A stretch of DNA of 64,000 bases from Marseilla massiliensis (GTDB taxonomy: Bacteria > Bacteroidota > Bacteroidia > Bacteroidales > Bacteroidaceae): assembly GCF_016899955.1 (NCBI RefSeq), contig NZ_JACJJL010000004.1, positions 159,775 to 223,774 of the forward strand, read 5' to 3'. The position numbers were made by a program, and so were the translations under genes. Positions 1,662 to 49,282 of the stretch are shown piece by piece. The notes below the pieces were generated by a model. That model ran no database searches. It was given only the letters and a program-made list of their open reading frames with translations, and was not told where the DNA came from. Position 1 is the first letter of the stretch. Each line of letters begins with the position of its first letter.

Positions 1662-1749
1662 CGTGCCGTTTTGCAGTGCAAAACGGCACGTATGGCATTG
1701 TGAAACGGGCCGTTTCAGACGGTGAAACGGCCCGTTTTGCAGAGCGCCC
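1662..1749. repeat. 22-bp-period intergenic array A (4 units)
   Basis: Units begin at 1662, 1684, 1706 and 1728, exactly 22 bp apart, each starting CGnnnCG followed by a GTwT-type segment and a trailing GAAA/AAAA. The first two units together form a perfect 19-bp inverted repeat with a one-base centre (1658-1696). Units three and four pair in the same way with one mismatch. The array lies between convergent genes. Confidence 0.85.
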
Positions 1750-1784
1750 GCGCAGCCGCCCCGCGCAGGCGGCATCCCCGGCGG

Positions 1785-2795
1785 CTAATCCAACCGCTGG
1801 CCGCGCTCGAGCAGATAGCGGTAGTTGTAGGCCTGCATCAGCGGGTAGAGCAGGCTGCGGAGCAGGGCCACGGGGTCGGGCTCGTAGGTATAAAACAGCG
1901 TATGGCGGTATTTCACAAACAAGCGCACCATGCGCAGCAGCGGCAACAGGCCCCCGGAGCACTCGCACTCGAGCAGCCTCACGCCGTCGCGGCACACCCG
2001 GCTGTCAGACTTGATGGCCCTGAGGAAGTCGAGCCTGGGCCTGAAGTGCCACGCGATGTACTTTTTCATGCGGCCATAGTTGCAAACGGCCCACCACAGT
2101 ATGTAGGCCCCGTTGGCCGCAGAGCGCTCACGCCGCTTGTCGGGCACGATGTAAGTGTCCGACGTGGCACACCGCCTCTGGTGCACAAGCTCCCTGTCCA
2201 CCATCACTATGCTGTCGTAAGCAGCGGCCGTGATGCTCAGTATCACGTCATAATAAGTGCGGTTGAATATCTCGCCCTTGTGCGGGAATAGGTTCAGCAA
2301 CTCACGCCTGAAGAGCAGCGTGTGGCCCGGGAGCGACGAGAAGAGCAGCCTGAAGAGCCCGTAGTTAGGGCAGCGCCTGTCGTAGTTAAGGCTGATGCGG
2401 CTGTCGTTGCTGAACGGCACCGAACGGCACGTGCACAGCAACTTGCCGCCGATGGCGTCCATCTGCAGCCTTATCTTGTCGGGCTCCCAGATGTCGTCCT
2501 GGTCGCAAATGGCAATGTAGTCGCCCGTGGCAAGGGCCATTGCGCTGAAGAAGTTGGCGTTGACGCCCCTTCCGCCCTTGTTGACACACGGCTTTATGAT
2601 GCTGTTACGTGCAGCATATTCCTCCACAATGGCCATGGTGCCGTCGGTGGAGCCGTCGTCTTGTATGATTATCTCGTGCAGCCCGTATGTCTGGTTGAGC
2701 ACAGAGTCAAGCTGTTCGCGCAAATGCCGCTCCCCGTTGTAGGTGCACATAACAATAGAAACACGTTTACCCAATACGTCCATTACACTGTTCAA
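1785..2795 (-). CDS. Family 2 glycosyltransferase
   Basis: A 336-residue GT-A enzyme. VSIVMCTYNGERHLREQLDS at the N-terminus is the nucleotide-binding start of GT2, DDGSTDGT follows, and CDQDDIW (about residue 97) carries the DxD metal site. The C-terminal third is basic and has no clear membrane helix. An in-frame second Met at 2783 is an equally good start. It is closely similar in its N-terminal half to the GT2 at 14018-14986, so the two look like paralogues acting in the same glycan pathway. A TATCTTTG box lies on the minus strand at 2961-2968, predicting a 160-nt leader. Product specificity is unknown. Confidence 0.85.
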   Translation of the reverse strand: MNSVMDVLGKRVSIVMCTYNGERHLREQLDSVLNQTYGLHEIIIQDDGSTDGTMAIVEEYAARNSIIKPCVNKGGRGVNANFFSAMALATGDYIAICDQDDIWEPDKIRLQMDAIGGKLLCTCRSVPFSNDSRISLNYDRRCPNYGLFRLLFSSLPGHTLLFRRELLNLFPHKGEIFNRTYYDVILSITAAAYDSIVMVDRELVHQRRCATSDTYIVPDKRRERSAANGAYILWWAVCNYGRMKKYIAWHFRPRLDFLRAIKSDSRVCRDGVRLLECECSGGLLPLLRMVRLFVKYRHTLFYTYEPDPVALLRSLLYPLMQAYNYRYLLERGQRLD

Positions 2796-2960
2796 TTGTA
2801 GGATGTTATGTCAAGTAGCCTGATGCGGGGCAGCCGCCACCGTGCCCACAGCCATGCCACCGCCACCGCGATGGCCCCTGCCGGCCCGGCCCCGGGGCAC
2901 GCCTGCCCCACAAAGCCCGTAGCCCCCCGTGCCGGGGGCCGCCCGCCTGAATGTCGGGTG

Positions 2961-2968
2961 CAAAGATA
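2961..2968 (-). promoter_or_regulatory. -7 promoter box (TATCTTTG) for the GT2 gene
   Basis: The minus strand reads TATCTTTG followed by CA, the usual Bacteroidetes -7 sequence. No good TTG is seen 19-21 bp upstream, so only the -7 box supports it. Confidence 0.45.
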
Positions 2969-3043
2969 CTAAAACTTATCCGAACGGCCATGGCGCCACA
3001 GGCTTTTTGCCCCCGGGCGGCAGGCTAAGTGCAGATAATTTAT

Positions 3044-3051
3044 TAACTTTG
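3044..3051 (+). promoter_or_regulatory. -7 promoter box (TAACTTTG) for the membrane protein gene
   Basis: TAACTTTGCAG lies 27 bp before the ATG at 3078, giving a short leader. The -33 element is not clear. It is divergent to the box at 2961-2968. Confidence 0.45.
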
Positions 3052-3077
3052 CAGCCCGGAAATGTAAGTCATACCTT

Positions 3078-4394
3078 ATGAAAATCCCAAGACAGCTATG
3101 CCTGCGCCGCGAAGAGCGCTGGCCGGCCCTCGTGGCGCTGGCCGTCATCGTGGCGCTCAACGCGCTCATGGTGGGCAAATACTACGACGTGTTTGCCAAA
3201 AACATCCACGGCGGCTTCTGGGGCATGTTCACCGGCAAGTTCCATGTGTCGGGCTACGACCCCATCCTCTACCTTGTCATGTCGGTATGGCGGGTGCTTT
3301 TCAACGGCTTCCGCCATCCGCTGCTGCTGTGGATGCTCTACCCTGCGGCCTGCCTCAACGAGTGGCTCATGCCCATAGCGGGCATCAACTGCGCCCAACT
3401 GATAACGGCGGCCATGCTCACCGTGGCCGACTTCGCCTCGTTTGTTCTCTTCCACCGCCTGCTGCGCGACGTGGTGGGGCTCTGCCGGGCCGACACGGCG
3501 CTGCTCACGGCCCTGTTTTTCTCGTTCGCCTATGTGATGGTGCCCATGGTTGTGCCCGACCACTTCGCCTTCTCGCTGTGCCTGCTGCTGCTCACCCTCT
3601 ACGTGTGCGGCCGCCACATGCGCGACGGCACGCCGCTGTCGGCCCCGGCCGCCGCGCTGCTCATGGTGGTCACGGCTGGCGTAACGCTGAGCAACGGGGT
3701 GAAAGTGGCGCTCGGCCAGTGGATGGCCAACGGCCGGCGGTTTTTCGCTTGGCGCAACCTACTTGTGGCCATGGCCCTGCCCTCGGCGCTGCTGCTGTGG
3801 GCCGGCTTCAGCGTGGGGGGCGTGCCCCAGCCCAAGACCGACGCCGACCTGCAGCAGGAAAACGCCAACCTGCGCAAGAACAATATGCCCACCCACGCCG
3901 ACCACGGCGGCGAACCGATAAGCACGGTGGGGTTCATGAACTGGACCGACGCCACCACGTCGCGCCTTGACGCCGCCGTGGAAAACCTGTTCGGCGAATC
4001 CCTGCAGCTGCACAGCGACCATCTGCTGGGCGATGTGTGGATAGACAGGCCGGTGGTGGTGCGCTACAGCCTGGCCGCCAACTACGTGGTCGAGGCCGCG
4101 CTCGTGCTTCTCTTCGCGCTGGGGGCTTGGTGCGGGCGCCGCGAGCGGTTCGCTTGGCTGTGCCTTTCGTGGTTTGCGGTCGACATGGCGCTGTCGATGG
4201 GGCTCGGCTTCGCCATCAACGAGATATACATAATGGGCCCCCACTGGCTCTTCGTCATGCCAATATCCATGGCCTACGCCATGCTCAGGGCCAAAGGCGC
4301 CGCCCTGAAGGCCCTGCGGGTGGCCACGGGCTGCCTTGCCGCATGGCTGTGGGCATACAACGGCACGCTGTTTGTGGGCTTCATGCTGGGCTGA
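3078..4394 (+). CDS. Polytopic inner-membrane protein, DUF6080-like
   Basis: A 438-residue protein with about ten hydrophobic segments, for example residues 17-32 (PALVALAVIVALNALM) and several leucine/valine-rich stretches after residue 75. A soluble, charged loop lies between about residues 248 and 315. The opening, with a short basic tail, an EERW motif and then NALM.GKYYDVF, resembles from memory the Bacteroidales family DUF6080, which is often found in polysaccharide loci. That assignment is from recall, not a search. The architecture, a multi-TM protein with a large extracytoplasmic loop, would also fit a GT-C-type lipid-linked glycosyltransferase, but no catalytic motif can be named. 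It sits among glycosyltransferase genes. Confidence 0.6.
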   Translation: MKIPRQLCLRREERWPALVALAVIVALNALMVGKYYDVFAKNIHGGFWGMFTGKFHVSGYDPILYLVMSVWRVLFNGFRHPLLLWMLYPAACLNEWLMPIAGINCAQLITAAMLTVADFASFVLFHRLLRDVVGLCRADTALLTALFFSFAYVMVPMVVPDHFAFSLCLLLLTLYVCGRHMRDGTPLSAPAAALLMVVTAGVTLSNGVKVALGQWMANGRRFFAWRNLLVAMALPSALLLWAGFSVGGVPQPKTDADLQQENANLRKNNMPTHADHGGEPISTVGFMNWTDATTSRLDAAVENLFGESLQLHSDHLLGDVWIDRPVVVRYSLAANYVVEAALVLLFALGAWCGRRERFAWLCLSWFAVDMALSMGLGFAINEIYIMGPHWLFVMPISMAYAMLRAKGAALKALRVATGCLAAWLWAYNGTLFVGFMLG

Positions 4395-4406
4395 AACCAA
4401 TGCTCA

Positions 4407-4720
4407 CCAGATAAAATCCAAGAGGCTTTTTCAGGAGTGCTGGTGTACAGGAGTGCAGGAGTACAGACAATGGTTTAGTATATATTTTGGAGGCGGGAGG
4501 CAGTAGACGGGAGTACAGACAATAGTTATGGAAACATGGAAGCTGTGGGAGCATGGGGAAAGTGGTGCAGGAAGATAGTCAAATACCATTGTCTTAACTC
4601 CTTTACTCCCTAACTCCTTAACTCCTAAAAATACACTAAACTATTGTCTTTACTCCTAAAAACACACTAAACCATTGTCTGTACTCCTGCACTCCCGTAC
4701 TCCTTAACTCCTAAAAAGCC
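4407..4720. repeat. GGAGTTA-type intergenic element 1
   Basis: About 314 bp made almost wholly of short repeats of the form GGAGTnA / ACTCCTnA. Copies of the tag ACAATrGTTT, or its complement, occur several times. The left end reads CCAGATAAAATCC then GAGGCTTTTTCAGGAG; the right end is the complementary ACTCCTAAAAAGCCCCC. The element is therefore bounded by inverted ends and could fold into a long imperfect hairpin. It fills the gap between convergent genes. Similar elements lie at 13480-13840 and 49347-49576. Confidence 0.7.
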
Positions 4721-4724
4721 CCCG

Positions 4725-5399
4725 TCAGACGATGGCGCGGCGCAACTCTTCGATGTTGTCGCGGTACTTGCTGATGTCGCCCTTGAATATCGACGACGTG
4801 CCGGCGACAAAGATGCTGGCCCCGACATCGCGCAGCTTGCGGGCGTTGTCGGGCGTTATGTTGCCGTCAACCTCCATTATTATGTCCTCGCGGCCCTCGC
4901 GCCGCAGCAGCTCGGCTATCTTTGCGGCCTTGCGCATGGTGCTCGGCACAATCTTCTGGCCTGCAAACCCGGGGTTGACCATGAGCACATTGATGCCGTC
5001 GATATAGTCGAGCACCTCTTCAAGCGAGTTTATCGGCGTGGCCGGATTGATGGCCAGGAAGCGCTTGCAGCCGTAAGGAGCGAGCCAGTCGAGCACGCGC
5101 TGCACCTGGAAGCTGCTCTCGTAGTGTATAGAGACAATGTCGGTAGGCTCTATCCCTATCCATTGCAGCTTGTACTCCGGCTCCTTTATCATTAGATGCA
5201 GGTCGAGCGGTATGCCCGTGAGGCTGCGCAAGCCCCGTATGTAGTCTACGCCGAGCCCGAAGTTTGGCACGAATATGCCGTCCATGACGTCGATGTGGAG
5301 GCGCTCGACGCCCTCCTGCTCGAATATCTCGATGGTCTCCTTGAGGTTGACCAGGTCGGAGCACATCATCGAAGCCGATATCTCGCCTTTCCTTTCCAT
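4725..5399 (-). CDS. Ribulose-phosphate 3-epimerase family protein
   Basis: Interconverts ribulose 5-phosphate and xylulose 5-phosphate, or a related ketose phosphate. Length (224 residues from this start) and motifs fit the TIM-barrel family: HIDVMDGIFVPN (metal-binding His-Asp), DLHLMI, VNPGFAGQ (phosphate loop) and EVDGNI (catalytic Asp). The start at 5399 overlaps the stop of the dehydrogenase gene as TGATG, the usual translational coupling; in-frame Mets at 5408 and 5426 would enlarge the overlap. Being last in a licD - cytidylyltransferase - dehydrogenase operon, its likely job here is to supply the pentulose phosphate that the dehydrogenase reduces, rather than to serve the general pentose pathway. 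The exact sugar is inferred. Confidence 0.8.
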   Translation of the reverse strand: MERKGEISASMMCSDLVNLKETIEIFEQEGVERLHIDVMDGIFVPNFGLGVDYIRGLRSLTGIPLDLHLMIKEPEYKLQWIGIEPTDIVSIHYESSFQVQRVLDWLAPYGCKRFLAINPATPINSLEEVLDYIDGINVLMVNPGFAGQKIVPSTMRKAAKIAELLRREGREDIIMEVDGNITPDNARKLRDVGASIFVAGTSSIFKGDISKYRDNIEELRRAIV

Positions 5400-6409
5400 C
5401 AGTTCCATGTGGTCATTATCTTGCAATAGGGTTCTGAGTGGGCGCGCATTATCTCCAGGCCGCGCCCGAGTTCATTCTGGGCGAACACGTGGGTGACGAG
5501 CCTCTCGGGGCTGATGGCCCCCCGCGCTATGGCTTCGGCGGCCTCGGTCCAGTCGGACGGCTGCGCCCCGTGGTAAGAAGAGTTCCACGTGCCGCGCAGC
5601 GTGATCTGCTTGCGCAGCACGCGCCAGTAGACGTCTTGCGCCAGGGTGATGTCGCCCGACGGGTTGCCCATGAGCACGGCCGTGCCCCCCGGCGCCGTGA
5701 GCCCCACGGCCTGGGCCACAGCCCCGGGCGTGCCCACAGCCTCGATGGCCACGTCATAGCGGCCTGCACAGGCATCGGCGGCGGCCACTGCCGTCAGCCC
5801 CAGTCTCTCGACCATGCGCCGCTTGGCCTCGTTGCGCACCACCACGTCTGCCGTAGAGGCCCCGAGCATGCGGGCCCAGAGCGCCGCCCCGATGCCAATC
5901 ATGCCCGTGCCGACAACGCATGCCGACTGCCCGGTTGCCAGGCGGCTGCGCTTCACGGCATGCAGGGCCACGGCCAGCGGCTCGAGCATGGCCGCCACCG
6001 TTGGCGAGACGCCCTCGGGCAGCGGCAGGAGGTTCCACACCGGCACGGCCACAAGCTCGGCAAAGCCGCCGTCGCGGCGCGACCCCACATAGTCGTAATG
6101 GTCGCACATCTCGTAGTTGCCGGCCTCGCACTGCGGGCACCGGCGGCAGGGGATGAGCGGGAACACGCCAACCGGGCGCCCGCACAGCCCCCCGTCGGCG
6201 GGGCTGCCCACGCTCTCGACCACGCCAGAGAGCTCGTGGCCGGGTATGGTGGGGAAGTGGTAGGTGCCTTTGGTGAATATCCTCGGCACGTCGGAACTGC
6301 AAATGCCGGCAGCCTTGACTCTGACCAGGGCCCACCCCTCGGGGCACTCGGGCGTTGGGGCGTCTTCGTAACGCAGGTCGCCCACGGCGTGTAGTACGTA
6401 TGCTTTCAT
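5399..6409 (-). CDS. Zinc-dependent polyol-phosphate dehydrogenase (TarJ/GatD-like MDR family)
   Basis: A 336-residue medium-chain dehydrogenase. The catalytic zinc region CSSD and GHELSGVV, the structural-zinc cysteines CRRCPQCEAGNYEMC (residues about 93-107) and the Rossmann loop GTGMIGIG are all visible. The start at 6409 overlaps the upstream cytidylyltransferase stop as ATGA; the frame is open further upstream, but that part is the shadow of the other gene. Members of this family reduce ribulose 5-phosphate to ribitol 5-phosphate (TarJ) or oxidise galactitol 1-phosphate (GatD). Coupling to a cytidylyltransferase and a LicD enzyme favours the synthetic role, making a pentitol phosphate for CDP activation. 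Direction and substrate are inferences from context. Confidence 0.8.
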   Translation of the reverse strand: MKAYVLHAVGDLRYEDAPTPECPEGWALVRVKAAGICSSDVPRIFTKGTYHFPTIPGHELSGVVESVGSPADGGLCGRPVGVFPLIPCRRCPQCEAGNYEMCDHYDYVGSRRDGGFAELVAVPVWNLLPLPEGVSPTVAAMLEPLAVALHAVKRSRLATGQSACVVGTGMIGIGAALWARMLGASTADVVVRNEAKRRMVERLGLTAVAAADACAGRYDVAIEAVGTPGAVAQAVGLTAPGGTAVLMGNPSGDITLAQDVYWRVLRKQITLRGTWNSSYHGAQPSDWTEAAEAIARGAISPERLVTHVFAQNELGRGLEIMRAHSEPYCKIMTTWN

Positions 6410-7107
6410 TTCTTTCTTGCTTTGATGATGGTCTTGAAGTTGCTCAAGTCCTCGGGTGTGGTAATCTTGAAGTTCATCGGGTCGCCCTCGATGATGCGGC
6501 AACTGAGGCCCGACTTGAATGCCAGTTCGGTGCTGCCGTTTATTTTCATCAGCTCTGCGGCGTCCATGGCGCGGTGGGCCGCCAGGTACTTGGCGAGCCT
6601 GAACGCCTCGGGCGCCTGCCCGGCCCACAGCTTGCTGCGGTCGAGCAGCGCCGTGATGGTGGTGCCGTCGTCGCTGAGGTAGGTTGTGTCTTTCACCGCT
6701 ATGGCCGGCATCACGGCGTCGGCCGCGGAGCAGGCAGCGAGGCACCGGCCTATGAGGTCGGCGCCGACGAGCGGCCGTGCGCCGTCGTGCACGATGACCA
6801 GGTCGGCGTCGCCGGTGGCCGACCGTGCCGCCACCTCAAGCGCATTGAATATGGAGTACTGCCTGGTCTGGCCGGCCGGGGCCAGGCTCACGGGCTTTTC
6901 GGGGCAGAGGCGGGCGGCAAGGCCGGCCACGAAGTAGCGCCACTGGTCGGCCACGGCCACCACTATGGCGTCGATGTCGGGGTGGGCGGCAAAGGCGGCG
7001 AGGCTGTAGCCCAGCACCGGCATGCCCTCTACCTCGACATACTGCTTGGGCATGTCGATGCCCATGCGGCTGCCCACGCCACCTGAGAGTATGATTGCTA
7101 TGTTCAT
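6406..7107 (-). CDS. Polyol-phosphate cytidylyltransferase (IspD/TarI family)
   Basis: Transfers CMP from CTP to a polyol phosphate. The 233-residue protein opens with MNIAIILSGGVGSRMG and PKQY, the CTP-binding signature shared by IspD and TarI, followed by VHDGARPLV and the C-terminal ITTPEDL. From sequence alone IspD (isoprenoid synthesis) and TarI (ribitol 5-phosphate) cannot be separated with certainty. Its place between licD and a polyol-phosphate dehydrogenase, with the overlap ATGA to the latter and a 21-bp gap to the former, makes TarI-type chemistry giving a CDP-pentitol much more likely than the MEP pathway. Confidence 0.75.
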   Translation of the reverse strand: MNIAIILSGGVGSRMGIDMPKQYVEVEGMPVLGYSLAAFAAHPDIDAIVVAVADQWRYFVAGLAARLCPEKPVSLAPAGQTRQYSIFNALEVAARSATGDADLVIVHDGARPLVGADLIGRCLAACSAADAVMPAIAVKDTTYLSDDGTTITALLDRSKLWAGQAPEAFRLAKYLAAHRAMDAAELMKINGSTELAFKSGLSCRIIEGDPMNFKITTPEDLSNFKTIIKARKK

Positions 7108-7128
7108 TTTCTTTGCTGTTTGCTGTGC

Positions 7129-7938
7129 CTACGCCATCAGTTCGGGCATTATGAACACAGAGTGGAACACACGTTTCTCCTCGGGCGGCACCTGCATGTA
7201 GTCGCCGTAGAGGTCGCGCAGGTAGGCATCGGGGTTGGCAGGGCCCAGAAACCGCTTGCCCTCAAACTCGACCTCAGTGAGCGGGAACACGCTGTCCTTG
7301 CGGTGCATGATGCCGTAACCGTTGTTGGTGGGTATGTTGCCGATGTACGTGCCCTTTGGCTTCAGCGCGCACGCGGCCGCCCACAGCGCGCTGTATGCCG
7401 CATACTTGCCCCCGAACCAGAACAGCTCGGCCGCGGCGCGCACGCTGTAGTGGTGGGCCTTGTGCAGTATTGAGTTGCTCTTTGATATGCCCTTGGTGAT
7501 GCGCTTGACGAAACCGCGGCTCACGGTGGGGTAGTCTTCAAAGGGGAACACGTCGACATAGAGCCCTTTCTGGTAGCCGGCGGCGAAGTTGTCGCCCGCC
7601 TCGATGTAGAAGGAGTTCATGTCGCGCACCTTCACGATGGGCAGCTCCACCTCGGGGTCGGTGGCCCTTGTCTGCAGGAACAGGTCCGGCGGCAGTTCGC
7701 CGGCAGCCTCGGCGGCAAACCGCTCCATGTCTTCGCGCCGCATGGCTATGTCGATGTCGTCGTCCCAGGGGATGAAGCCCCCGTGGCGCACGGCCCCGAG
7801 CAGCGTGCCGCCGTCGAGCCAGTAGCTGATGGAATGGCGGCGGCATAGGCGGTCTATTTCCTCAAGTATGTCGAGCTGCTTAAGCTGGCACACCCTGAGG
7901 TTGCGCCTGTTGTATTCTTCGAGATATCTATTCTTCAT
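7129..7938 (-). CDS. LicD-family phosphotransferase
   Basis: LicD enzymes move phosphocholine or, in the fukutin branch, ribitol phosphate from a CDP donor to a glycan. The 269-residue protein has the defining motif YWLDGGTLLGAVRHGG followed by PWDDDIDIA (about residues 41-67), whose acidic residues bind metal and the CDP donor. VDVFPFEDYP follows. The start at 7938 (MKNRYLEEYN) was preferred to 7995, because the extra 19 residues have no family look. It heads the four-gene operon that ends at 4725; a TAAATTTG box lies upstream at 8033-8040. No choline kinase or choline transporter is nearby, which argues for a pentitol-phosphate substrate made by the downstream genes. Confidence 0.85.
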   Translation of the reverse strand: MKNRYLEEYNRRNLRVCQLKQLDILEEIDRLCRRHSISYWLDGGTLLGAVRHGGFIPWDDDIDIAMRREDMERFAAEAAGELPPDLFLQTRATDPEVELPIVKVRDMNSFYIEAGDNFAAGYQKGLYVDVFPFEDYPTVSRGFVKRITKGISKSNSILHKAHHYSVRAAAELFWFGGKYAAYSALWAAACALKPKGTYIGNIPTNNGYGIMHRKDSVFPLTEVEFEGKRFLGPANPDAYLRDLYGDYMQVPPEEKRVFHSVFIMPELMA

Positions 7939-8032
7939 CACACTTCGGTTTGCAGGCTGCGCCGACACGGTGAACCGGGCCTGCCTGTCGGCCACTGCGG
8001 CTGCCGGGCGGCTGTGCGCTGCTTATCTCGTG

Positions 8033-8040
8033 CAAATTTA
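8033..8040 (-). promoter_or_regulatory. -7 box (TAAATTTG) for the licD operon
   Basis: The minus strand reads TTAAATTTGCACG about 95 bp before the licD start. The -33 partner is not obvious. Confidence 0.45.
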
Positions 8041-8117
8041 ATAAAAATGTTTGAAGTCTGAAACAAAAATGGCGTTTTTGCTCTGCGCCACTGCCGCTAT
8101 TGGCGCCCTGCGAGCCC

Positions 8118-8208
8118 AAACGGCCCGTATGGGGTTGCCGAACGGCCCGTATGGCACCCTGAAACGGGCCGTTCGGCAAGGCAAAACGAGCCGTTTTGCA
8201 AACTGCTG
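8118..8208. repeat. 22-bp-period intergenic array B (4 units)
   Basis: Core units start at 8121, 8143, 8165 and 8187, exactly 22 bp apart, and are preceded by AAA. The first two are nearly identical in their first 12 bases (CGGCCCGTATGG). The third carries the complementary core CGGGCCG, so units two and three can pair. Confidence 0.85.
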
Positions 8209-8655
8209 GGCGCCAAGGGGTTGGCATGGCGCGGCAGGATGCCACCCAGACATGCCGCCACGACCGGGGCCGACAGACCGCCATGCCACGCCCACCCACG
8301 GCAACCACCCGCACGCAACCGGCGCCACCGTGGCAGGCGGCAGGGCAAAGGCTACCGCCCGGGGCCGGCAAGGCGGAGCCGCACGGCTGCTGCCGAAACC
8401 ACCCCAAACGCCCACGGCCAGGGCATGAGGCCAATGCGAGACAGCAACAGCGAAACTGGCGTTTTTTAACATTATGCGAAGATTATGCCAACATATCGGT
8501 GAAACAGCCCTAAGCATAGCCATTTTTCCTTTCATTCTATAAAATATTGCGTTTTCTCAATTAACATTTATCCGATAACACAGAATCATTCTATCAAACC
8601 GTTACCAACGCGCAAAGTTTTAATACTATAAGCCTTAAAATTAAGAAAAGGTTTC

Positions 8656-8663
8656 TAAATTTG
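8656..8663 (+). promoter_or_regulatory. -7 box (TAAATTTG) for susC/susD
   Basis: TAAATTTGTG lies 65 bp before the chosen susC start within an AT-rich stretch. Confidence 0.45.
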
Positions 8664-8728
8664 TGAACGAAACCGGGATTGAATGCCAAAGAGTAAATAA
8701 TTATCCACTTATTAAAACAAAAAGCATC

Positions 8729-11785: not shown

Positions 11786-11845
11786 TTGCCGCTCCGGCCA
11801 TACATCAAGTTAATTAGCACAATAACAACATAAATCAAACGAAAT

Positions 11846-13402: not shown

Positions 13403-13439
13403 ATTATTAATCCAGGAGTAAACGCTCCAAACATTGCAG

Positions 13440-13473
13440 AAAGCGCGTCTATGGGAATAGGCGCGCTTTTTTG
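13440..13473 (+). terminator. Intrinsic terminator after susD
   Basis: AAAGCGCG pairs with CGCGCTTT across a 14-nt loop and is followed directly by a run of T, 38 bp after the susD stop. Confidence 0.75.
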
Positions 13474-13479
13474 GGCCCA

Positions 13480-13840: not shown

Positions 13841-13900
13841 AAGGCTCTTTGCGCAGCCACGGCCATGGCCGCCCAACAGCCTGTAAACAAGCACGTTGCG

Positions 13901-13991
13901 AAACGTGCCGTATCAGACTGCGAAACGGCACGTATGACCATGCAAAACGGCACGCCTTGAATGACGAAACGGCTTGTATGGCAACTCCAGG
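13901..13991. repeat. 22-bp-period intergenic array C (4 units)
   Basis: Cores start at 13904, 13926, 13948 and 13970, each preceded by AAA and exactly 22 bp apart (CGTGCCGTAT, CGGCACGTAT, CGGCACGCCT, CGGCTTGTAT). Units one and two are complementary in their cores. Confidence 0.85.
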
Positions 13992-23420: not shown

Positions 23421-23453
23421 AGCCAAGCCGCTGAGTCTCAGCGCATTGGCAAA

Positions 23454-23541
23454 CCACCCGTTCGGGCCGGCAAAACGGCCCGAACGGCAAGGCAAAACGG
23501 CCTCCGCGACACGGCGAAACGGCCCCCGCGGCAACGCCACA
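23454..23541. repeat. 22-bp-period intergenic array D (3 good units plus 1 degenerate)
   Basis: Cores start at 23476, 23498 and 23520, each preceded by AAAA or GAAA, and the 22-bp phase also fits a degenerate unit at 23454. It lies between codirectional genes in a 198-bp gap. Confidence 0.75.
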
Positions 23542-25107: not shown

Positions 25108-25193
25108 TGCCGCGAGCGGGACTCGAACCCGCACAGCCATTTCTGGCCAAGGGATTTTAAGTCCCTCGTGTCTACCAATTCCACCATTGCGGC
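25108..25193 (-). tRNA. tRNA-Leu (anticodon UAA)
   Basis: The 86-nt minus-strand sequence folds as a class II tRNA. The 5' end is GCCGCAA and the 3' acceptor is TCGCGGC with discriminator A. The D arm is GGTGGAATTGGTAGACAC, the anticodon loop TTAAAAT sits between GGGAC and CCCTT-type arms, there is a long variable arm, and the T loop is GTTCGAGTC. The acceptor stem has one A-C mismatch. CCA is not encoded. Confidence 0.93.
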
Positions 25194-35620: not shown

Positions 35621-35711
35621 AAACGGCCCATATGACCATGCAAAACCTACTGTTTTGCAAGCCCGAACGGCCTGTATTGGCGAACCGAACGGCCCGTTTG
35701 CCAACGGAGGG
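35621..35711. repeat. 22-bp-period intergenic array E (4 units)
   Basis: Cores start at 35624, 35646, 35668 and 35690. The second (CCTACTGTTTTGCAAG) has lost the core but keeps the phase and the flanking AAAA. The array lies between convergent proC and the small secreted-protein gene, within a 489-bp gap that otherwise holds only the palindrome and GC-rich sequence. Confidence 0.8.
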
Positions 35712-36672: not shown

Positions 36673-36694
36673 CACGAATTAAAACAAAATCTAC

Positions 36695-37249: not shown

Positions 37250-37375
37250 CGGGCACGGCCTGACGCAGCCACACTCTCCACAACAAACTAAACGCTACGC
37301 AGCCGGGCGCAGGCCAAACGGCCGACCCGGCCGACGGACAGACAAATACACCAAGCAACAAGCAAAGAAGAAGAG

Positions 37376-39034: not shown

Positions 39035-39088
39035 CCGGCCCGTGCCGCCACAGGCACAGGCCAACGACACAAAAAGACCAACGACAAC

Positions 39089-40165: not shown

Positions 40166-40227
40166 CACGCCGGAAGCCAACCGCGCCTGCCGGCATCACA
40201 ATACACTGACACGAAAAAGCAAAGACT

Positions 40228-41475: not shown

Positions 41476-41533
41476 GACGGGCCGCAGGCAAGCCACAGTA
41501 AACAACAGGAAACAACATTTAAACAGACAAGAC

Positions 41534-42496: not shown

Positions 42497-42516
42497 CGCC
42501 ACAGCAACCCAATACG

Positions 42517-42556
42517 AGTGCCCCGCATACCGCCGCCACGGCGTATGCGGGGCACT
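42517..42556 (+). terminator. Hairpin after argF'
   Basis: A 14-bp perfect stem, AGTGCCCCGCATAC with GTATGCGGGGCACT, and a 12-nt GC-rich loop, 20 bp after the stop. It lacks a clear T run. Confidence 0.6.
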
Positions 42557-42608
42557 TGCGCTCAAGCAAGGCCCGGGGGCGATGCTTCGCCACGCCTCAT
42601 GGCCGATA

Positions 42609-42696
42609 CGGCCTGTTTTGCAATGCGAAACGTGCCGTATTGACTGTCCAAACGGCACGTTTTAAGAGCCCGAACGGCCCATTTTGCAAACTGCTG
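42609..42696. repeat. 22-bp-period intergenic array F (4 units)
   Basis: Cores start at 42609, 42631, 42653 and 42675 (CGGCCTGTTTTGCA, CGTGCCGTATTGAC, CGGCACGTTTTAAG, CGGCCCATTTTGCA). Units two and three have complementary cores. The array sits in the 537-bp gap between argF' and the threonine aldolase gene; 42697-42850 shows nothing recognisable. Confidence 0.85.
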
Positions 42697-42854
42697 CAAA
42701 CCAGACCGTTAGCCTATCCATGCCCCGACCACACGCCAACAGGGCCGACGCCAACGGCAACCGCCGTCGGCGGACTGTTGGAAAACGCAGGCAAGGGCAC
42801 CGGGCATCCGCCATGCTGCGAGCCGCGGCAAACGAAAAAATCATGGATTTTGCT

Positions 42855-42884
42855 TTGAACTTTCTCGCAGTTGAAGTATCTTTG
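42855..42884 (+). promoter_or_regulatory. Promoter of the threonine aldolase gene
   Basis: TTG (42855-42857), 19 bp, TATCTTTG (42877-42884) fits the Bacteroidetes consensus well. It predicts a leader of about 145 nt before the ATG at 43034. Confidence 0.65.
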
Positions 42885-43033
42885 CATAAGATAAGCGGCA
42901 CCCGGAAGATTCAGAGCAAGCTCACTTGCCGCTCTCTTGCTGCATCACTGCAACGCCAAACCGGCAATGGCGGCACCGGCGGAGCGCCCGCCGCCACGAC
43001 AGGGCCGCCAAAGGCCCACTTAACACACAGCTT

Positions 43034-44059
43034 ATGATTTCATTTGAAAACGATTATAACAACGGGGCACACCCAAAGGTGTTGCAACGACTGGTTGAGA
43101 CAAACGAGGAGCGGACACTGCCCTACGGGGCCGACCAATTCTGCGAAAGCGCAAAGGCCAAGATAATGGCAGCCTGCGACGACGAAGACGCCGTGATATT
43201 CTTCCTGACCGGGGGCACACAGACCAACGCCACCGTCATCGACTCTTTGCTCAGCCAATACGAGGGAGTGGTAGCCGCAGACAGCGGCCACATCAATGTG
43301 CATGAGGCAGGAGCCATAGAGTTCACCGGGCACAAGGTGATAACATTGCCCGGCCACGGGGGAAAGATGAGGGCGGAAGACCTGGACAAATACCTCGAAG
43401 GCTTCAACAACGACGAAAACAACGCCCATTCGGTGTTCCCGGGCCTTGTCTACATCACCCTCCCAACGGAATTGGGAACCATCTACAGCGCTGCCGAGCT
43501 CGACGCGATATACCGCATTTGCCGCCGAAACAACATACCGCTGTATGTCGACGGGGCGCGCCTTGGCTACGGCCTGGCCGCCGACGGCAACGACATCACG
43601 CTGCCCTACCTTGCCCGCCACTGCGATGCGTTCTACATCGGGGGCACCAAGGCAGGGGCACTATGCGGCGAAGCCGTGGTGTTCACGCACGGAAACGCCC
43701 CGCGCAACTTCTTCACCATACAGAAGCAACACGGGGCGCTCATGGCCAAGGGACGCCTGCTGGGCGCACAATTCGACGCCCTGTTCACCGACGGGCTTTA
43801 TTTCGACATCTCGCGCCATGCCATAGACATGGCCAAGAGAATGCGCATGATGTTTGAAAAGAAAGGTTACCGCTTCTGGATCGACTCGCCCACCAACCAG
43901 CAGTTTGTGATAATAGGCAACGACGACGTTGAGCGCCTGTCGCGCGACGTGCTGTTCACCCATTGGGGAAAGGCCGACGAAAGCCACACCGTCTGCCGCT
44001 TCGTGACGAGCTGGGCCACTACCGAGGCCGAGCTCGAACAGCTGCAGTCACTGCTCTGA
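43034..44059 (+). CDS. ltaE: Low-specificity L-threonine aldolase
   Basis: PLP enzyme that splits threonine or allo-threonine to glycine and acetaldehyde. The 341-residue protein opens MISFENDYNNGAHPKVLQRL and contains FLTGGTQTNATVI, YVDGARLGYGL and the PLP lysine at 206 in GGTKAG, all typical of the beta-eliminating lyase family. The start at 43034 was chosen by homology with the family; an upstream in-frame Met at 42926 falls in leader sequence. Its 3' end overlaps that of the converging lipoprotein gene by 12 bp. Confidence 0.9.
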   Translation: MISFENDYNNGAHPKVLQRLVETNEERTLPYGADQFCESAKAKIMAACDDEDAVIFFLTGGTQTNATVIDSLLSQYEGVVAADSGHINVHEAGAIEFTGHKVITLPGHGGKMRAEDLDKYLEGFNNDENNAHSVFPGLVYITLPTELGTIYSAAELDAIYRICRRNNIPLYVDGARLGYGLAADGNDITLPYLARHCDAFYIGGTKAGALCGEAVVFTHGNAPRNFFTIQKQHGALMAKGRLLGAQFDALFTDGLYFDISRHAIDMAKRMRMMFEKKGYRFWIDSPTNQQFVIIGNDDVERLSRDVLFTHWGKADESHTVCRFVTSWATTEAELEQLQSLL

Positions 44060-44713
44060 CAGTCGGAAGCAGCGCACCGACGTGCCATCGTAGGTCTCGA
44101 CGGCCAGCTCCACCGAGTCGGCACGCAACGAGGCGCAGCCTATGCTGACGTAAGTCTTCGACGAATAGTACTGCGGCACGCCTCCCTGGTCGTGATAAAA
44201 GCGCAGGTAAGCGGTGCGGCCCCCGGCCTGGGACACACCGACGGAGTCGCACACAAGGCCCACGGTGTGCCTTGCCCCCTGCGGTCCGCCCTCGCCTACC
44301 TTTACGTAAAGCCCGATGTTGAGATACTTTCCCGACGGGCTGAGCCACACGCTCTCAAGGTCGACGGGGTCGGTGCGCACCGTGCCAAAAGCCGACGGAG
44401 GGTTTGGCCGCAGCACCGGCACCTGCACAATGCTCCTTGCCCGCACCTCTGTGCCGTCGGCATGGTCGTAATACAGTATGGCCCTGTATAGCGTGTCGGC
44501 CTTGTCGGCCCAGTCGGCGCTCAGCGGCTGCTGCATTACGAGCGAGTCGCCGCCGTCGGTGACGGCATAGTCTACGGCAGAGGCTTGCGACGTATGCGCC
44601 TCGACAAAGTCGGCAGTGAGCAGCGAGTATTCGCCGTCGCCACTGTCGTAGCTGTCCACCTGGCAAGCAGCGAGCACGGTTGCCAGCAAAAAGAGAATAG
44701 ACTTCTTAATCAT
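44048..44713 (-). CDS. NigD-like lipoprotein
   Basis: A 221-residue predicted outer-membrane lipoprotein with lipobox LAAC at residues 14-17. The mature part is beta-rich and has the NigD-type layout: a small N-terminal barrel (LLTADFVEAHTSQASAVDYA, then a TDGGDSL turn), a YYDHADG strand pair, and a C-terminal sandwich (YLNIGLYVKVGE, YLRFYHDQGGVPQYY). NigD proteins were first named in Prevotella bacteriocin loci and occur widely in Bacteroidales; their function is unclear. It converges with ltaE, the two coding sequences overlapping by 12 bp. A second NigD-like protein is encoded at 52770. Confidence 0.72.
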   Translation of the reverse strand: MIKKSILFLLATVLAACQVDSYDSGDGEYSLLTADFVEAHTSQASAVDYAVTDGGDSLVMQQPLSADWADKADTLYRAILYYDHADGTEVRARSIVQVPVLRPNPPSAFGTVRTDPVDLESVWLSPSGKYLNIGLYVKVGEGGPQGARHTVGLVCDSVGVSQAGGRTAYLRFYHDQGGVPQYYSSKTYVSIGCASLRADSVELAVETYDGTSVRCFRLSEQ

Positions 44714-44774
44714 AATAATGTGGAAACATTGCGGCGGCGCCTTGCCTTTGGAGCGAGGTGCCGCCGCTGATGGT

Positions 44775-45938
44775 TCAAACTGTAGCTGCTAATGCCGCCC
44801 TGTTGTTGCGCACGGGGTTGGCATACATCCTTAGAATGCACTCGCGCAAGAACGGCTCGTCCTTGCCTTCAAGCTCAATCCTGGCCAGCTGCCCGCCCAC
44901 GTAATCTTCAAACACACGGCGCTCGGCCTCGGTGAAATGCTCGCCGTAGCCCTCGCCGGGCCACAATGTGTCGGCAGCCACATAGTTGCCGGCATACAGC
45001 CTGTAGTTGCAGTGAATGGCACGGTCTATGTGCCTGGCCACAGTGTCGAACAGCTCGCCCTTAGGCATGGCCGGGTCGAGCGTGTCGAGGAACGCGTCGA
45101 TGCACGTCGAGCAGTGGTAGTGTATGCGCCCCTTGCGGCCCATGATGCCCGTCTGCATGCTCATCACGTCGTCGGCCTTGGTCTTCTTCCACCCCGGCAC
45201 GTCGCGCCTGAGCTGGAACTCCATGGCCTTGAGATAGTCGCACGGGTCGTATTCATACGAAATGGCCAGCGGCACGATATGCAGCTGCCGCAGCCTGTCG
45301 ATGGCAGAGCCGTCGCCCCCCATGGCCATCATCTTGAGCACAGACGGTTGTGTGCGGTCGTCGCTGTCCTTGGCCCGGCCCTCGCGCTGCGCAATCCAGA
45401 TGTTGTCGTGCTTGCGGGCAATCACGTAGTGCATGTAGTCGGCCATGCGCTTGCTGCTGGCAAGCATCTCCCTGAGCCCGGCACTGCGCTCTACGATGAA
45501 CGACTTGTTAAGCCTCACGAGGTCTTTTATCCACGGAGCGGCCAGCAGGTTGTCGCCTATTGCAATCTCGCAAGTGGTCCCGAAGCCAGCGTCAATCAAG
45601 AGCATGTCGAGCAACGCCGAGTCGAGCACGATGTCGCGGTGGTTGCTCACGAAGGTGTAGCGGCTGGCCCTGTCGACAGCCGAGCAGTCCATGTCGCACC
45701 CGTCGCTGGCAGTCTTGACAAGCCTCTTGAGGAAACCATAGCAGAACTTCACCTGGAAGTCGAGGCACGACTTGCACTTCCTCACTTCCCCGGCCAGCGC
45801 CTCGAAGGGCACTCCCGGCACGGCTGCGGCCAGCACAGCCCTGAACTGCCCGTCGGCCAGCAGCCTGTCGTACGCTTCAGGCAGCTCTTCGGGCTCAAAC
45901 GGCCTTATGGCGTCATAGCGCCTCAACTCATCATCCAT
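44775..45938 (-). CDS. PlsC-like glycerolipid acyltransferase
   Basis: A 387-residue protein with the acyltransferase box as NHRDIVLD (about residue 99), a variant of HX4D in which His and Asp catalyse transfer. Later IAQREGRAKDSDD matches the EGxRS-type glycerophosphate-binding motif. The N-terminal 85 and C-terminal 110 residues are extra helices. It probably acylates lysophosphatidate or a related lipid at the membrane. It lies 54 bp after ddl at the end of the leftward operon that starts with the PASTA protein gene. Confidence 0.78.
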   Translation of the reverse strand: MDDELRRYDAIRPFEPEELPEAYDRLLADGQFRAVLAAAVPGVPFEALAGEVRKCKSCLDFQVKFCYGFLKRLVKTASDGCDMDCSAVDRASRYTFVSNHRDIVLDSALLDMLLIDAGFGTTCEIAIGDNLLAAPWIKDLVRLNKSFIVERSAGLREMLASSKRMADYMHYVIARKHDNIWIAQREGRAKDSDDRTQPSVLKMMAMGGDGSAIDRLRQLHIVPLAISYEYDPCDYLKAMEFQLRRDVPGWKKTKADDVMSMQTGIMGRKGRIHYHCSTCIDAFLDTLDPAMPKGELFDTVARHIDRAIHCNYRLYAGNYVAADTLWPGEGYGEHFTEAERRVFEDYVGGQLARIELEGKDEPFLRECILRMYANPVRNNRAALAATV

Positions 45939-45992
45939 GGCAGAATAAAGTGTTTGGGCCGGCCTCCGGTGGGCAGCCGGCGCGTTGTTGTC

Positions 45993-47009
45993 TTAATTAA
46001 ACTGGTTCTCGACAATCTCCGTGAGCACTTCGGTCATGGTCATGCCGGCGGCACGCACCTGCTGCGGTATGAAGCTCGTGGCGGTCATGCCCGGCGTGGT
46101 GTTTATTTCAAGCATGTATATCTTGTCTACCTCTTTGCCGTCCTTGCCCGGCCCGCGGCCTATGATGTAGTCTATGCGGATGATGCCGTTGCAGTGCAGT
46201 ATGTCGTAGATGTGGCTTGTGAGCTCCCTCACTCGGCGCGTGGTGTCCTCGCTGAGGCGCGCCGGGGTTATCTCCTGCACCTGCCCGTTGTACTTGGCGT
46301 CGTAGTCGAAGAACTCGTTCTTCGTCACCACCTCGGTAGCGGGCAGCACCACCGACCGCTCACGCGTCTTGTAGCATCCCACCGAAATCTCCGTGCCGTT
46401 GATGCAGGCCTCGACCATCACCTCCGGGCTCTCGAGCATGGCCTTGCGTATGGCCGGTGCCAGCTGGTCCTTGTTCTTCACCTTGGATATGCCGAAGCTG
46501 CTTCCGTCGGCTGCCGGCTTCACGAAACAGGGCATGCCGATGCGTGCCTCCACCTCGTCGTCGCTCACAAGCTCCTCGTAGCCGCTGCGTATGAGCAGGC
46601 TGTCGGCCACGAGCACGCCGTAGCCGCGCAGATACTGGTTGAGCACGAACTTGTCGAAGGTCATCGCCTCGACAAGAACGCCGCTCGTGGAGTAAGGTAT
46701 TCCAATCAGGTCGAAGTATCCCTGGAGCACTCCGTTCTCTCCCGGCGTGCCGTGAATGGTTATGTATGCATAATCGAAGAGCACGGCTTTACCGTCTTTC
46801 ACAAACGAGAAGTCATTGCGGTCGATGGAGGCCGTGGTGCCGTCGCCGAGGTCGACGTGCCAGTCGAGGCCCTTCACGTCTACTATATATACATTGTATC
46901 GTTCCTTGTCGAAGAATGAGTAAAGCCCTTGCGCGGAGCGCATGGACACATCGTGTTCCGACGAATCGCCGCCGCAAACGATGGCGATGTTTCTCTTTAT
47001 TTGTTTCAT
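45993..47009 (-). CDS. ddl: D-alanine--D-alanine ligase
   Basis: ATP-grasp enzyme of peptidoglycan synthesis, 338 residues. VCGGDSSEHDVSMRSAQGLY at the N-terminus, PCFVKPAADGSSFGISKV (ATP lid), RIDYIIGR and LEINTTPGMTATSFIP (metal and second D-Ala site) are all visible. It starts 2 bp after the pseudouridine synthase gene ends. Length and motifs are normal. Confidence 0.95.
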   Translation of the reverse strand: MKQIKRNIAIVCGGDSSEHDVSMRSAQGLYSFFDKERYNVYIVDVKGLDWHVDLGDGTTASIDRNDFSFVKDGKAVLFDYAYITIHGTPGENGVLQGYFDLIGIPYSTSGVLVEAMTFDKFVLNQYLRGYGVLVADSLLIRSGYEELVSDDEVEARIGMPCFVKPAADGSSFGISKVKNKDQLAPAIRKAMLESPEVMVEACINGTEISVGCYKTRERSVVLPATEVVTKNEFFDYDAKYNGQVQEITPARLSEDTTRRVRELTSHIYDILHCNGIIRIDYIIGRGPGKDGKEVDKIYMLEINTTPGMTATSFIPQQVRAAGMTMTEVLTEIVENQFN

Positions 47010-47011
47010 CG

Positions 47012-48100
47012 TTATATTGTTGTTATGTCATTGTTAGCGTTCATATACCTGCGCCACCTGTCAACAAGCTGCTCCATGTCGGCGGGCAGCTCCGAGGTGA
47101 AGTCCATCTGCCGCCCTGTGCGTGGGTGGACGAAGCCCAGCGTGCGCGCGTGCAGCGCCTGGCGCGGGCACAGCTTGAAGCCGTTGGCCACAAACTGGCG
47201 GTAGCTGCCCGTGCGCTCGCCGCGCAGAATCTCGGTGCCCCCATACCGTTCGTCGCCGAATAGCGGGTGGCCCTCATGCCTCATGTGCGCCCTTATCTGG
47301 TGCGTGCGCCCTGTCTCGAGGATGCACTCCACGAGAGTGACGTAGCCGAAGCGCTCCATCACGCGCCAGTGGGTGACGGCGGCCTTGCCCACTTCGGAGC
47401 CCGGGGGGAACACGGCCATGCGCAGCCTGTCCTTGGGGTCGCGCCCGATGTTGCCCTCTATGGTGCCTGTGTCGGCGGTGAAGTTGCCCCACACGAGGGC
47501 GTTGTAGCTCCGGTGGGTGGTCTTGTTGTAGAACTGTGCGCCGAGCGATGTCTTTGCCTCGGGCGTCTTGGCCACCACCAGCAGTCCGCTGGTGTCTTTG
47601 TCGATGCGGTGTACGAGCCCCACCTGCGGGTCGTTGGGGTCGTATGAGTCGAGCCCGCGCAGATGCCAGGCCACGGCATTGACGAGCGTGCCGCTGAAAT
47701 TGCCGCACCCGGGGTGCACCACCAGGCCCGCCGGCTTGTTTATCACCATGAGGTCGTCGTCTTCATACACCACGTCGAGCGGAATGTCCTCCGGCTCTAT
47801 GGTGGTGTCGTAGTGCGGGCGGTCGAGCATCAGCGTCACCACCTCGCCCGGCCTGACCTTGTAGCTGCTCTTCACCGGGCGCCCGCCAACGTGGACGAAG
47901 CCCGCGTCGGCGGCTTTCTGTATGCGGTTGCGGCTTGAGTGCTGCAGTTTCTCGAAGAGGAACTTGTCGACCCTCACCGGCGCCTGCCCGCGATCCACCT
48001 CTACGCGGAAGTGCTCGTAGAGCTGCCCCTGCTCCGCCCCGGCGTCGCCATCGGGCTCCTGTCCCGGCTCAAGGTAGTCTATCTCGTCGTCGAATGTCAT
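47012..48100 (-). CDS. RluA-family 23S rRNA pseudouridine synthase (RluD-like)
   Basis: A 362-residue protein. The N-terminal S4 RNA-binding domain is at about residues 35-95 (RVDKFLFEKL, AGFVHVGGRPVKSSYKVRPG). The catalytic core has VGLVHRIDKDTSGLLVVAKT, whose Asp is the nucleophile, and TGRTHQIRAHMRHEGHPL. S4 plus this core is typical of RluD/RluC-type enzymes modifying large-subunit rRNA. Start and upstream stop overlap by 4 bp (ATGA), and ddl follows after 2 bp. Confidence 0.92.
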   Translation of the reverse strand: MTFDDEIDYLEPGQEPDGDAGAEQGQLYEHFRVEVDRGQAPVRVDKFLFEKLQHSSRNRIQKAADAGFVHVGGRPVKSSYKVRPGEVVTLMLDRPHYDTTIEPEDIPLDVVYEDDDLMVINKPAGLVVHPGCGNFSGTLVNAVAWHLRGLDSYDPNDPQVGLVHRIDKDTSGLLVVAKTPEAKTSLGAQFYNKTTHRSYNALVWGNFTADTGTIEGNIGRDPKDRLRMAVFPPGSEVGKAAVTHWRVMERFGYVTLVECILETGRTHQIRAHMRHEGHPLFGDERYGGTEILRGERTGSYRQFVANGFKLCPRQALHARTLGFVHPRTGRQMDFTSELPADMEQLVDRWRRYMNANNDITTI

Positions 48101-48813
48101 TGCGCTCCCTCCTTCCCTGCCTCCGCCTGGGTGGCGATGCCGCCCTGGGCCTGCGTCTCGCCGGCCTGTTCGCCCACCACCTCAAAGTCGTCTTCGCCGC
48201 CGTAGGTCACTGTCACCTCGGCCGGGTCTACATAATTTATGTCCATCAGGCTGTCGTCATACGTGCCGCTTCCCACCATAAGCGTCAGCGGCACGTCGAT
48301 GGGCACGCGGTCGCCCATGCCTACCCGCCGTCCGCGGGCCTTTATCCCGTACACCCAGTCCTTTTCGCCTGTCACCTCTTCGGGCGGCGTCAGGCGGAAG
48401 CCCATGGCCTTAAGCCGGGCCTCGGCCTCGCGCACACTGCTGTTGTCGGCTATGTCGGGTATCGTCAGCGTGGGCGTCGACTCCGAGTTGACCGTAAGGT
48501 AAACCATGCGGCCCGATTTCACGCGCGCGCCCCCCATGGGCGTCTGCAGCAGCACGCAGTCGGCGGGCATGCGCTTGTTGTAGCCGGTGTCGGCCACGGC
48601 CACCCTCAGTCCGTTGCTCTCTATCAGCGCCCGGGCCTCGTTGAAGCCCATGCCCCTGACGTTGGGCACAGGTATCTCCTCGCCGTGGTGGGTGTAGACG
48701 TCGAGGCCGTACTTCACTCCAAAGCACAGCGCCGCCACCACCACAGCCATGGCCAATAGGTTGCCCCAGAGCCGCCTGTCGAGGAACTTGCCGAAAAACT
48801 CTTTTGACTTCAT
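48097..48813 (-). CDS. PASTA-domain membrane protein
   Basis: A 238-residue protein with a short cytoplasmic tail, one TM helix at about residues 18-38 (LLAMAVVVAALCFGVKYGLD) and PASTA repeats beginning EIPVPNVRGMGFNEARALIE, TLTIPDIADNSSVREAEARL and, less clearly, RVPIDVPLTLMVG. The last 40 residues are low-complexity (QAQGGIATQAEAG). PASTA domains bind peptidoglycan or muropeptides; here there is no kinase or transpeptidase domain. It is the first gene of the operon PASTA - rluA-type - ddl - acyltransferase and has a good promoter at 48965-48994. Confidence 0.88.
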   Translation of the reverse strand: MKSKEFFGKFLDRRLWGNLLAMAVVVAALCFGVKYGLDVYTHHGEEIPVPNVRGMGFNEARALIESNGLRVAVADTGYNKRMPADCVLLQTPMGGARVKSGRMVYLTVNSESTPTLTIPDIADNSSVREAEARLKAMGFRLTPPEEVTGEKDWVYGIKARGRRVGMGDRVPIDVPLTLMVGSGTYDDSLMDINYVDPAEVTVTYGGEDDFEVVGEQAGETQAQGGIATQAEAGKEGAQ

Positions 48814-48964
48814 TGCTTGATATCTGTGTCATTGCCGTGACTTCACTTGCCGTTGGCCCGCACCTCACGGCCTGTGCTGCCGGCCATCAACCCGCATGAG
48901 CCTTGCCGGCGGGCCACCGGGGCCGTTGCCCCCGCCGCCTCCGTCGCTCACGGCTTGCATCATG

Positions 48965-48994
48965 CAAAGATAATGCTTTTGGCTCTGACAGCAA
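48965..48994 (-). promoter_or_regulatory. Promoter of the PASTA-ddl operon
   Basis: The minus strand reads TTG (48992-48994), 19 bp, TATCTTTG (48965-48972). It predicts a leader of about 145 nt. Confidence 0.65.
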
Positions 48995-49191
48995 AACAAT
49001 TGGCTGTTTTTGTGCCTCGGCGGCTGCCAAAAGGGCGTGGCCGGGCTGTGCGGGAGTGCCCCGGTGGCCGGCATAGCCGCCGCGGGCAGCCCCACGGGTA
49101 GTGGCCGCAGCCTTACGGCTGGCCGGATTGGGGCATGCGATGTTGGAAACAAATATTGACAAATGGGGCACTGCGGCCACCCGCCGTTGCC

Positions 49192-49282
49192 AAATGGCCC
49201 GTATTGGCTTGCAAAACGGCCCCCGCCACGCTCCCGAACGGCCCGTTCCGGCGGGCCAAACGGCATCCGCCGGCTAGCCCCT
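49192..49282. repeat. 22-bp-period intergenic array G (4 units)
   Basis: Cores start at 49195 (TGGCCCGTATTGG), 49217, 49239 and 49261, each preceded by AAA or GAA. It lies in the long gap between the PASTA promoter and the rpmH terminator. 48995-49190 and 49283-49346 show no other feature. Confidence 0.8.

Follow-up and report, generated by a model that had tools for sequence, protein, structure and literature searches.

Several described systems resemble, each in part, the element treated here: an intergenic array of four near-palindromic boxes at a 22-bp period, which occurs seven times in the window, a stretch of 64,000 nucleotides from Marseilla massiliensis (contig NZ_JACJJL010000004.1, positions 159,775 to 223,774). 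The nearest of them within the order is BrickBuilt, a miniature inverted-repeat transposable element of Porphyromonas gingivalis, which consists of a 23-nt tandem repeat with a leader and a tail and is present in 19 copies in one strain, according to the excerpted text of its description (PMC4596501). Both elements occur in Bacteroidales, are built of intergenic tandem units of similar length, have a flanking leader and tail and show a limited host range. However, the same excerpt gives BrickBuilt a repeat number variable from 1 up and small inverted-repeat ends, whereas the present arrays exist in at least 160 copies with four degenerate near-palindromic boxes at 22 bp, a polar module and even spacing. 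Repetitive extragenic palindromes (REPs) and bacterial interspersed mosaic elements (BIMEs) are, like the arrays, high-copy intergenic palindromes with boxes in both orientations (excerpts of PMC3733652 and PMC2817692); most REPs have a foot of GTAG or CGTC, and those of the GTAG class have a link to REP-associated tyrosine transposases (RAYTs), as stated in the excerpt of PMC3733652. The arrays differ from them in that RAYT genes do not track them, a GTAG or CGTC foot is absent from their consensus, the format is 4 x 22 bp and neighbouring arrays exclude one another. Sites of the nucleoid-occlusion proteins SlmA and Noc are also scattered round the chromosome (PMC4117426 and PMC4331003, in part), those of SlmA being more abundant near the origin (PMC4117426, in part); by contrast, the present arrays have four boxes in fixed register and a box word that changes between species. 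No description of such an element was found in the titles and opening abstract lines that searches of open-licence PMC papers listed.

The arrays had a fixed architecture and phase, were more constrained in their boxes than in their spacers and lay nearly all between genes. They excluded one another at short range in two species, and their box words differed between species. The reading that we favour, tentatively and as a little short of probable, is that they are cooperative docking sites for a predicted sequence-specific, chromosome-organising DNA-binding protein. A putative dimeric protein would bind each near-palindromic box, and all four boxes would lie on one face of the DNA because 22 bp is about two helical turns, with the end module setting the polarity of the complex. 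The spacing between arrays would be held by selection, neighbours within a few kb being superfluous or detrimental. The reader protein would evolve together with its box word, and occasional copying between loci would homogenise the boxes inside a genome. The role could be, for example, loop anchoring or marking of the origin half. Mutual exclusion, strict architecture and a species-changing word would indicate a chromosome-organising system in Bacteroidota that is undescribed in the titles and abstract openings listed by the searches; a mobile element, the alternative, would be unusual too, since it would have to show target immunity at short range. Under both readings a concrete experiment is possible in a cultured species, Prevotella lacticifex.

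Array architecture and the polar end module

Scans with a four-box matrix covered 1,611,180 bp (39%) of the 4.13-Mb M. massiliensis genome; matches of at least 20 bits were counted as arrays and those of at least 36 bits as strong arrays. Because each matrix scores the arrays used to train it, a Markov-3 simulation and the reversed sequence served as nulls to guard against circularity. There were 160 arrays, 141 of them strong, and none in either null. Extrapolation by proportion gave about 400 arrays for the whole genome. An earlier note on the window had named two outcomes that would speak against its arrays, namely loss of the 22-bp spacing outside the window and equal numbers in shuffled sequence; neither was observed when the test was run.

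Genome-wide alignment resolved the unit into a near-palindromic box of 13 bp, AAACGGsCCGTTT, and a spacer of 9 bp after it, so that dyad centres recur every 11 bp, alternating between box and spacer. A pattern of one unit plus 3 bases of the next, with up to 3 mismatches allowed, had 171 forward and 170 reverse matches in the genome, against 3 and 1 in the reversed control. Boxes of at least 9 bits were separated by 22 bp 324 times, by 44 bp 189 times, by 66 bp 69 times and by 88 bp 5 times, and every remaining distance between 10 and 130 bp occurred at most 3 times. A fifth in-register box of at least 5 bits was found in 6 of the 141 strong arrays and was absent from 135. When one interval was left free to shift, 132 of 143 arrays held all three intervals at 22 bp; a shifted outer interval fitted better in 11 and a shifted middle interval in none. 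Mean column identity over 140 arrays was 0.64 in boxes, 0.45 in spacers, 0.35 in mid-spacer and 0.27-0.28 in flanks. The most similar pair among these 140 was no more than 77% alike, showing no recent copying, yet the 22-bp phase and the boxes were kept.

A conserved one-sided end module, TTTTGCAAnnCgCTGnnnnnCAGGcnGTTGCG, which the earlier note had overlooked, was present in 91 of 140 strong arrays and gives the element a polarity; these arrays also served to train the module matrix, and positive scores at both ends were obtained for 19 of the 140. In relatives the module position reads about GTAACCCCaCTGATTATCAATGnGTTACAG. The outer boxes of P. lacticifex were often near reverse complements of each other, ATACATGCCATTT and AAATGGCATGTAT, around inner AAACGGNCCGTTT boxes, a layout not followed by all 18 elements aligned.

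The module was also considered as a stand-alone site, and this was rejected. In a genome of a second species, G058 (166 reciprocal best hits with M. massiliensis, median protein identity 82%), 24 of 25 module matches had a counted array no more than 200 bp away, and the 25th adjoined array units roughly 1 kb into the contig stretch retrieved. In M. massiliensis 162 matches lay near arrays and 40 away from them, compared with 49 in the reversed null, indicating that the distant matches were at chance level.

Placement among genes and spacing along the chromosome

Placement was assessed for the 72 arrays of at least 40 bits in the first 850 kb, with genes taken from our own gene callers. Only 2 of the 72 overlapped predicted genes. 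The remaining 70 were in tandem (34), convergent (19) and divergent (17) gaps, and convergent gaps held more arrays per intergenic base. Where the gap was divergent or tandem, every array kept at least 114 bp from the predicted start that it faced. Among 19 oriented arrays in tandem gaps, 12 pointed with the genes and 7 against them. One array or none lay in each of several stretches of low GC, among them C40:10-80 kb, C117:110-163 kb and the end of the window; array-free stretches of normal GC also exist (C40:80-120 kb, 58-61% GC).

The earlier note had suggested structured 3' ends of RNAs, and more broadly the arrays could be structured elements of RNAs, or terminators that act in both directions at the ends of genes. 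Neighbouring boxes are able to pair, and parts of BrickBuilt in P. gingivalis have promoter activity in the excerpted description (PMC4596501). This explanation is nevertheless improbable, given that arrays occupied all gap types, divergent ones included, that their polarity in tandem gaps was mixed and that an Rfam search of the seven window arrays returned no match. General covariation was also lacking: total stem pairs in 140 M. massiliensis arrays equalled expectation (1366/1358, 1417/1428 and 1407/1389 for the adjacent box pairs), the exception in favour of an RNA being one co-varying position pair per adjacent box pair (z 4.3, 3.6 and 2.9). The 57 arrays of G058 did show an excess of pairs between boxes 3 and 4 (706 versus 657 expected, single pairs up to z 9.9) and one position pair between boxes 1 and 2 that reached z 9.4, but this excess cannot be separated from subfamily structure.

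Spacing was measured between midpoints of array-bearing gaps and compared with random draws among the available intergenic gaps; the main tests, in which runs were not split at array-free voids, omit the first 124 kb of contig C40, which holds one array. Under equal draw, only 1 of 149 intervals in M. massiliensis was shorter than 2.5 kb when 30.7 were expected (eight contigs summed), and 1 of 53 in G058 when 13.5 were expected (three contigs summed). With a length-weighted placement null applied to array positions, the expected numbers were 20.2 and 10.7, respectively. Equal numbers of the longest array-free gaps gave 34 short intervals versus 30.7 expected in M. massiliensis and 13 versus 13.6 in G058, with some regularity on 1 of 11 contigs (C84, p 0.011), showing that array-free gaps behave randomly. 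The coefficient of variation (CV) of the intervals was 0.38 versus 0.80 on C40 from 124 kb on (39 gaps) and 0.44 versus 0.84 on C73 (30 gaps); in G058 it was 0.17 versus 0.81 on C22 (15 gaps) and 0.47 versus 0.86 on C35 (34 gaps). Building an exclusion into the null gave a combined p of 4e-9 at 2 kb and 4e-4 at 3 kb; for this test the runs were split at 25-kb voids, which biases them towards regularity. These results indicate that the spacing effect is mostly a mutual exclusion over about 2-3 kb.

Relatives, copying and chromosome position

M. massiliensis falls into a group treated here as one large genus; its named members reached by a scan of public sequences include P. lacticifex, Xylanibacter caecicola, Leyella stercorea and Palleniella muris, besides many Prevotella metagenome-assembled genomes (MAGs). 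Of 398 genomes of this genus, 32, including that of P. lacticifex, had at least 100 matches on each strand to a generic two-box pattern, in which AAANGNNNCNTTT recurs at 22 bp and up to 2 mismatches are allowed. For G010 and G423, two of these 32 array-rich genomes, the reversed control gave more matches than the pattern itself; this control is not neutral, as it also matches arrays shifted by 11 bp (L180 of G124, L177 of G418). A three-box pattern that tolerated up to 3 mismatches, scanned over 198 genomes of the order, matched M. massiliensis 84 times and 10 others 1-2 times each, so that by this pattern, which arrays with different box words would escape, the architecture was at background in the 197 other genomes. 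The scan of public sequences returned at least 120 matching stretches. Among the 80 matches listed, 75 were Prevotellaceae by title, 2 came from a 'Bacillota' MAG and 3 were others; outside the group, the matches examined (L216, L224, L272, L295, L299, L304) were either isolated cases or simple tandem repeats. The MAG titled Bacillota NALB_7861_17 (L267, L275, L293) had the same pattern counts as G184, a genome of the same genus, and its title is probably wrong. Tandem tracts of TTTTTACC type with an 8-bp period were also seen in Prevotella relatives (L139:10656-10772 and the L162 flank).

The box word was AAAGGTCACCTTT in G350, AAAGGTTACCTTT in G010, AAAGGGCACGTTT in G053 and AAAGGTGGCATTT or AAAGGTGCCCTTT in X. 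caecicola. A species-specific word combined with even spacing would suit DNA-uptake-type signal sequences with a species dialect, as even spacing is a feature of DNA-uptake words. Uptake words, however, are single and scattered, whereas boxes of at least 9 bits were often in the 22-bp register and arrays touched genes in only 2 of 72 cases, which makes an uptake signal scarcely credible.

Classical REP/BIME elements mobilised by RAYT, the first suggestion of the earlier note, would account for high-copy intergenic palindromes with boxes in both orientations and for the richer occupation of convergent gaps per intergenic base. This is very unlikely and was largely refuted by the distribution of Y1_Tnp genes. 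Of 21 array-rich genomes 9 carried such a gene, as did 11 of the 20 that were array-poor and none of the 5 that were register-shifted; M. massiliensis and G058 both lacked it. Presence of Y1_Tnp thus did not follow the arrays over 46 genomes, and a RAYT association was rejected. Further, neither a GTAG nor a CGTC foot was present in the oriented majority consensus of the module-bearing arrays.

On the 2.66-Mb contig of P. lacticifex, 48 loci clustered round 479 kb (R 0.50, Rayleigh p 6e-6), the loci being all 0-2 mismatch matches to a right-end pattern, which came before the 3-mismatch ones among the 100 of 182 matches listed; perhaps the arrays there cluster round the origin. One parS-like word, with 2 mismatches allowed against the parS consensus, lay at 338,660, and the GC skew was noisy with a sign change somewhere near 0.5 Mb; both are weak signals. 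In M. massiliensis, whose contigs are unordered, three parS-like sites fell within 4 kb (C40:121,669-125,627), beside the densest array stretch, and among the parS-like signals of this genome the clustering alone is telling. The site at 125612-125627 of C40 overlaps the left edge of an array. A more specific version of the docking reading, that arrays of the Prevotella group are evenly spaced, origin-weighted centromere-like or loop-anchor stations in which a putative reader's word was rewritten between species while the architecture stayed fixed, is possible but doubtful.

The main rival holds that the arrays are cores of a miniature mobile element served by a putative recombinase or transposase, with target immunity giving the even spacing, recognition the fixed architecture and separate bursts of amplification the species-typical boxes; we regard it as distinctly possible, though short of probable. 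Copying was evident in G058, where one pair of arrays was 98% identical over 88 bp and only 40% over the 40 bp to the left and 50% over the 52 bp to the right. A second pair was 93% identical (left 38%, right 62%, the likeness continuing through the module), and further pairs, 86-90% alike, shared more of the flank. These identities show that arrays get copied; for one pair it is clear that the flanks did not come along. The near-identical pairs look like products of mobility or conversion. Subfamilies of elements with common flanks, presence or absence at shared gaps and large differences in copy number among species are also in line with mobility. Direct TTTACA-type motifs stood on both sides of part of the elements (15 of 91 at +134, 17 of 91 at -47/-48), and in one P. 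lacticifex element measured by hand they were about 180 bp apart. The idea that the element is an insertion with private target duplications was rejected, the flanking motifs being direct and common to different elements (left and right flanks of 18 P. lacticifex elements were compared by eye). Several results sit less well with a mobile element. Flank alignments showed no terminal inverted repeats or target duplications, although no systematic search was made. A Y1_Tnp gene neither occurred in M. massiliensis nor tracked the arrays elsewhere, and the M. massiliensis genome lacked recent copies although phase and boxes were kept. Of two exact matches in a viral collection, L341 was like a Prevotella array and L342 was a plain tandem repeat. 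Docking and mobility may both be true in part, a mobile array having been put to use.

The docking reading agrees with the earlier note's suggestion of sites for a nucleoid or chromosome-organising protein, which is favoured by the fixed phase, the box constraint and the mutual exclusion in two species; the reader protein itself is predicted. The earlier three-way interpretation was in this sense partly supported. A number of further findings weigh against docking, beginning with the near-identical G058 pairs above. Among adjacent gene pairs shared by M. massiliensis and G058, an array was present in both in 4, in M. massiliensis only in 1, in G058 only in 7 and in neither in 91, and positional conservation weakened with control for gap length (Fisher 0.0006, 0.011, 0.034 and 0.25; the last two when both genomes had to have a gap of 180 bp or more, 4/1/5/16, or of 250 bp or more, 3/1/4/9). 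One shared gap (C40 203,671 and C35 74,317) holds arrays whose sequences have diverged but whose distances are similar and whose polarity agrees. The matrix requires four boxes, so that shorter arrays would escape it, and one of the four was weak (below 5 bits) in 45 of 141 arrays and two were weak in 3. As for spacing, C128 (16 gaps) alone was non-significant (CV 0.76 versus 0.94, p 0.23), and a 3-kb exclusion alone accounted for the regularity on the longest contigs. In P. lacticifex spacing was uneven, which speaks for a mobile element (CV 1.04 over 31 intervals between 200 and 960 kb, the shortest being 6.8 kb, from an incomplete list of better-matching elements only). The noisy GC skew and unexceptional parS-like counts leave the position of the origin uncertain; in M. 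massiliensis there were 3 parS-like matches per strand compared with 4 and 5 in the reversed control. Finally, the majority of other genomes of the genus had at most 30 two-box matches.

The seven arrays of the window

All seven arrays that the earlier note had described, with four units each in exact 22-bp register, were recovered at its coordinates. Their features are collected in Table 1.

Table 1. Arrays and end modules in the window, numbered from its first nucleotide.
Feature	Position	Strand	Gap	Score (bits)	Remark
Array A, four 13-bp boxes, 22-bp period	1659..1737	-	convergent	73.3	polarity from its module
End module of array A	1629..1661	-			oriented consensus match, confident
Array B, four boxes	8118..8196	+	divergent	70.9	
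End module of array B, TTTTGCAAACTGCTGGGCGCCAAGGGGTTGGCA	8194..8226	+			confident
Array C, four boxes	13901..13979	-	convergent	55.0	
End module of array C	13871..13903	-			confident
Array D, four degenerate boxes	23451..23529	not assigned	tandem	33.7	below the 36-bit strong cut
Array E, four boxes	35621..35699	not assigned	convergent	56.3	module without confident recognition
Array F, four boxes	42606..42684	+	tandem	66.8	
End module of array F, TTTTGCAAACTGCTGCAAACCAGACCGTTAGCC	42682..42714	+			confident
Array G, four boxes	49192..49270	not assigned	divergent	41.2	
Possible end module of array G	49268-49300	+			not confident

Two details of the first description needed correction. The perfect inverted repeat of array A is present, but its arms are 20 bp long around one base (1656-1675 and 1677-1696) and not 19 bp. 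The three convergent gaps were found again, whereas by our own gene calls the others are two tandem and two divergent, not three and one. Elsewhere in the window, a tRNA gene was recognised at 25108-25193 on the minus strand (Rfam RF00005, 56.1 bits), and a match to the DUF805b cis-regulatory RNA (RF02914, 47.5 bits) lay at 63183-63217 on the plus strand, in the AT-rich end of the window.

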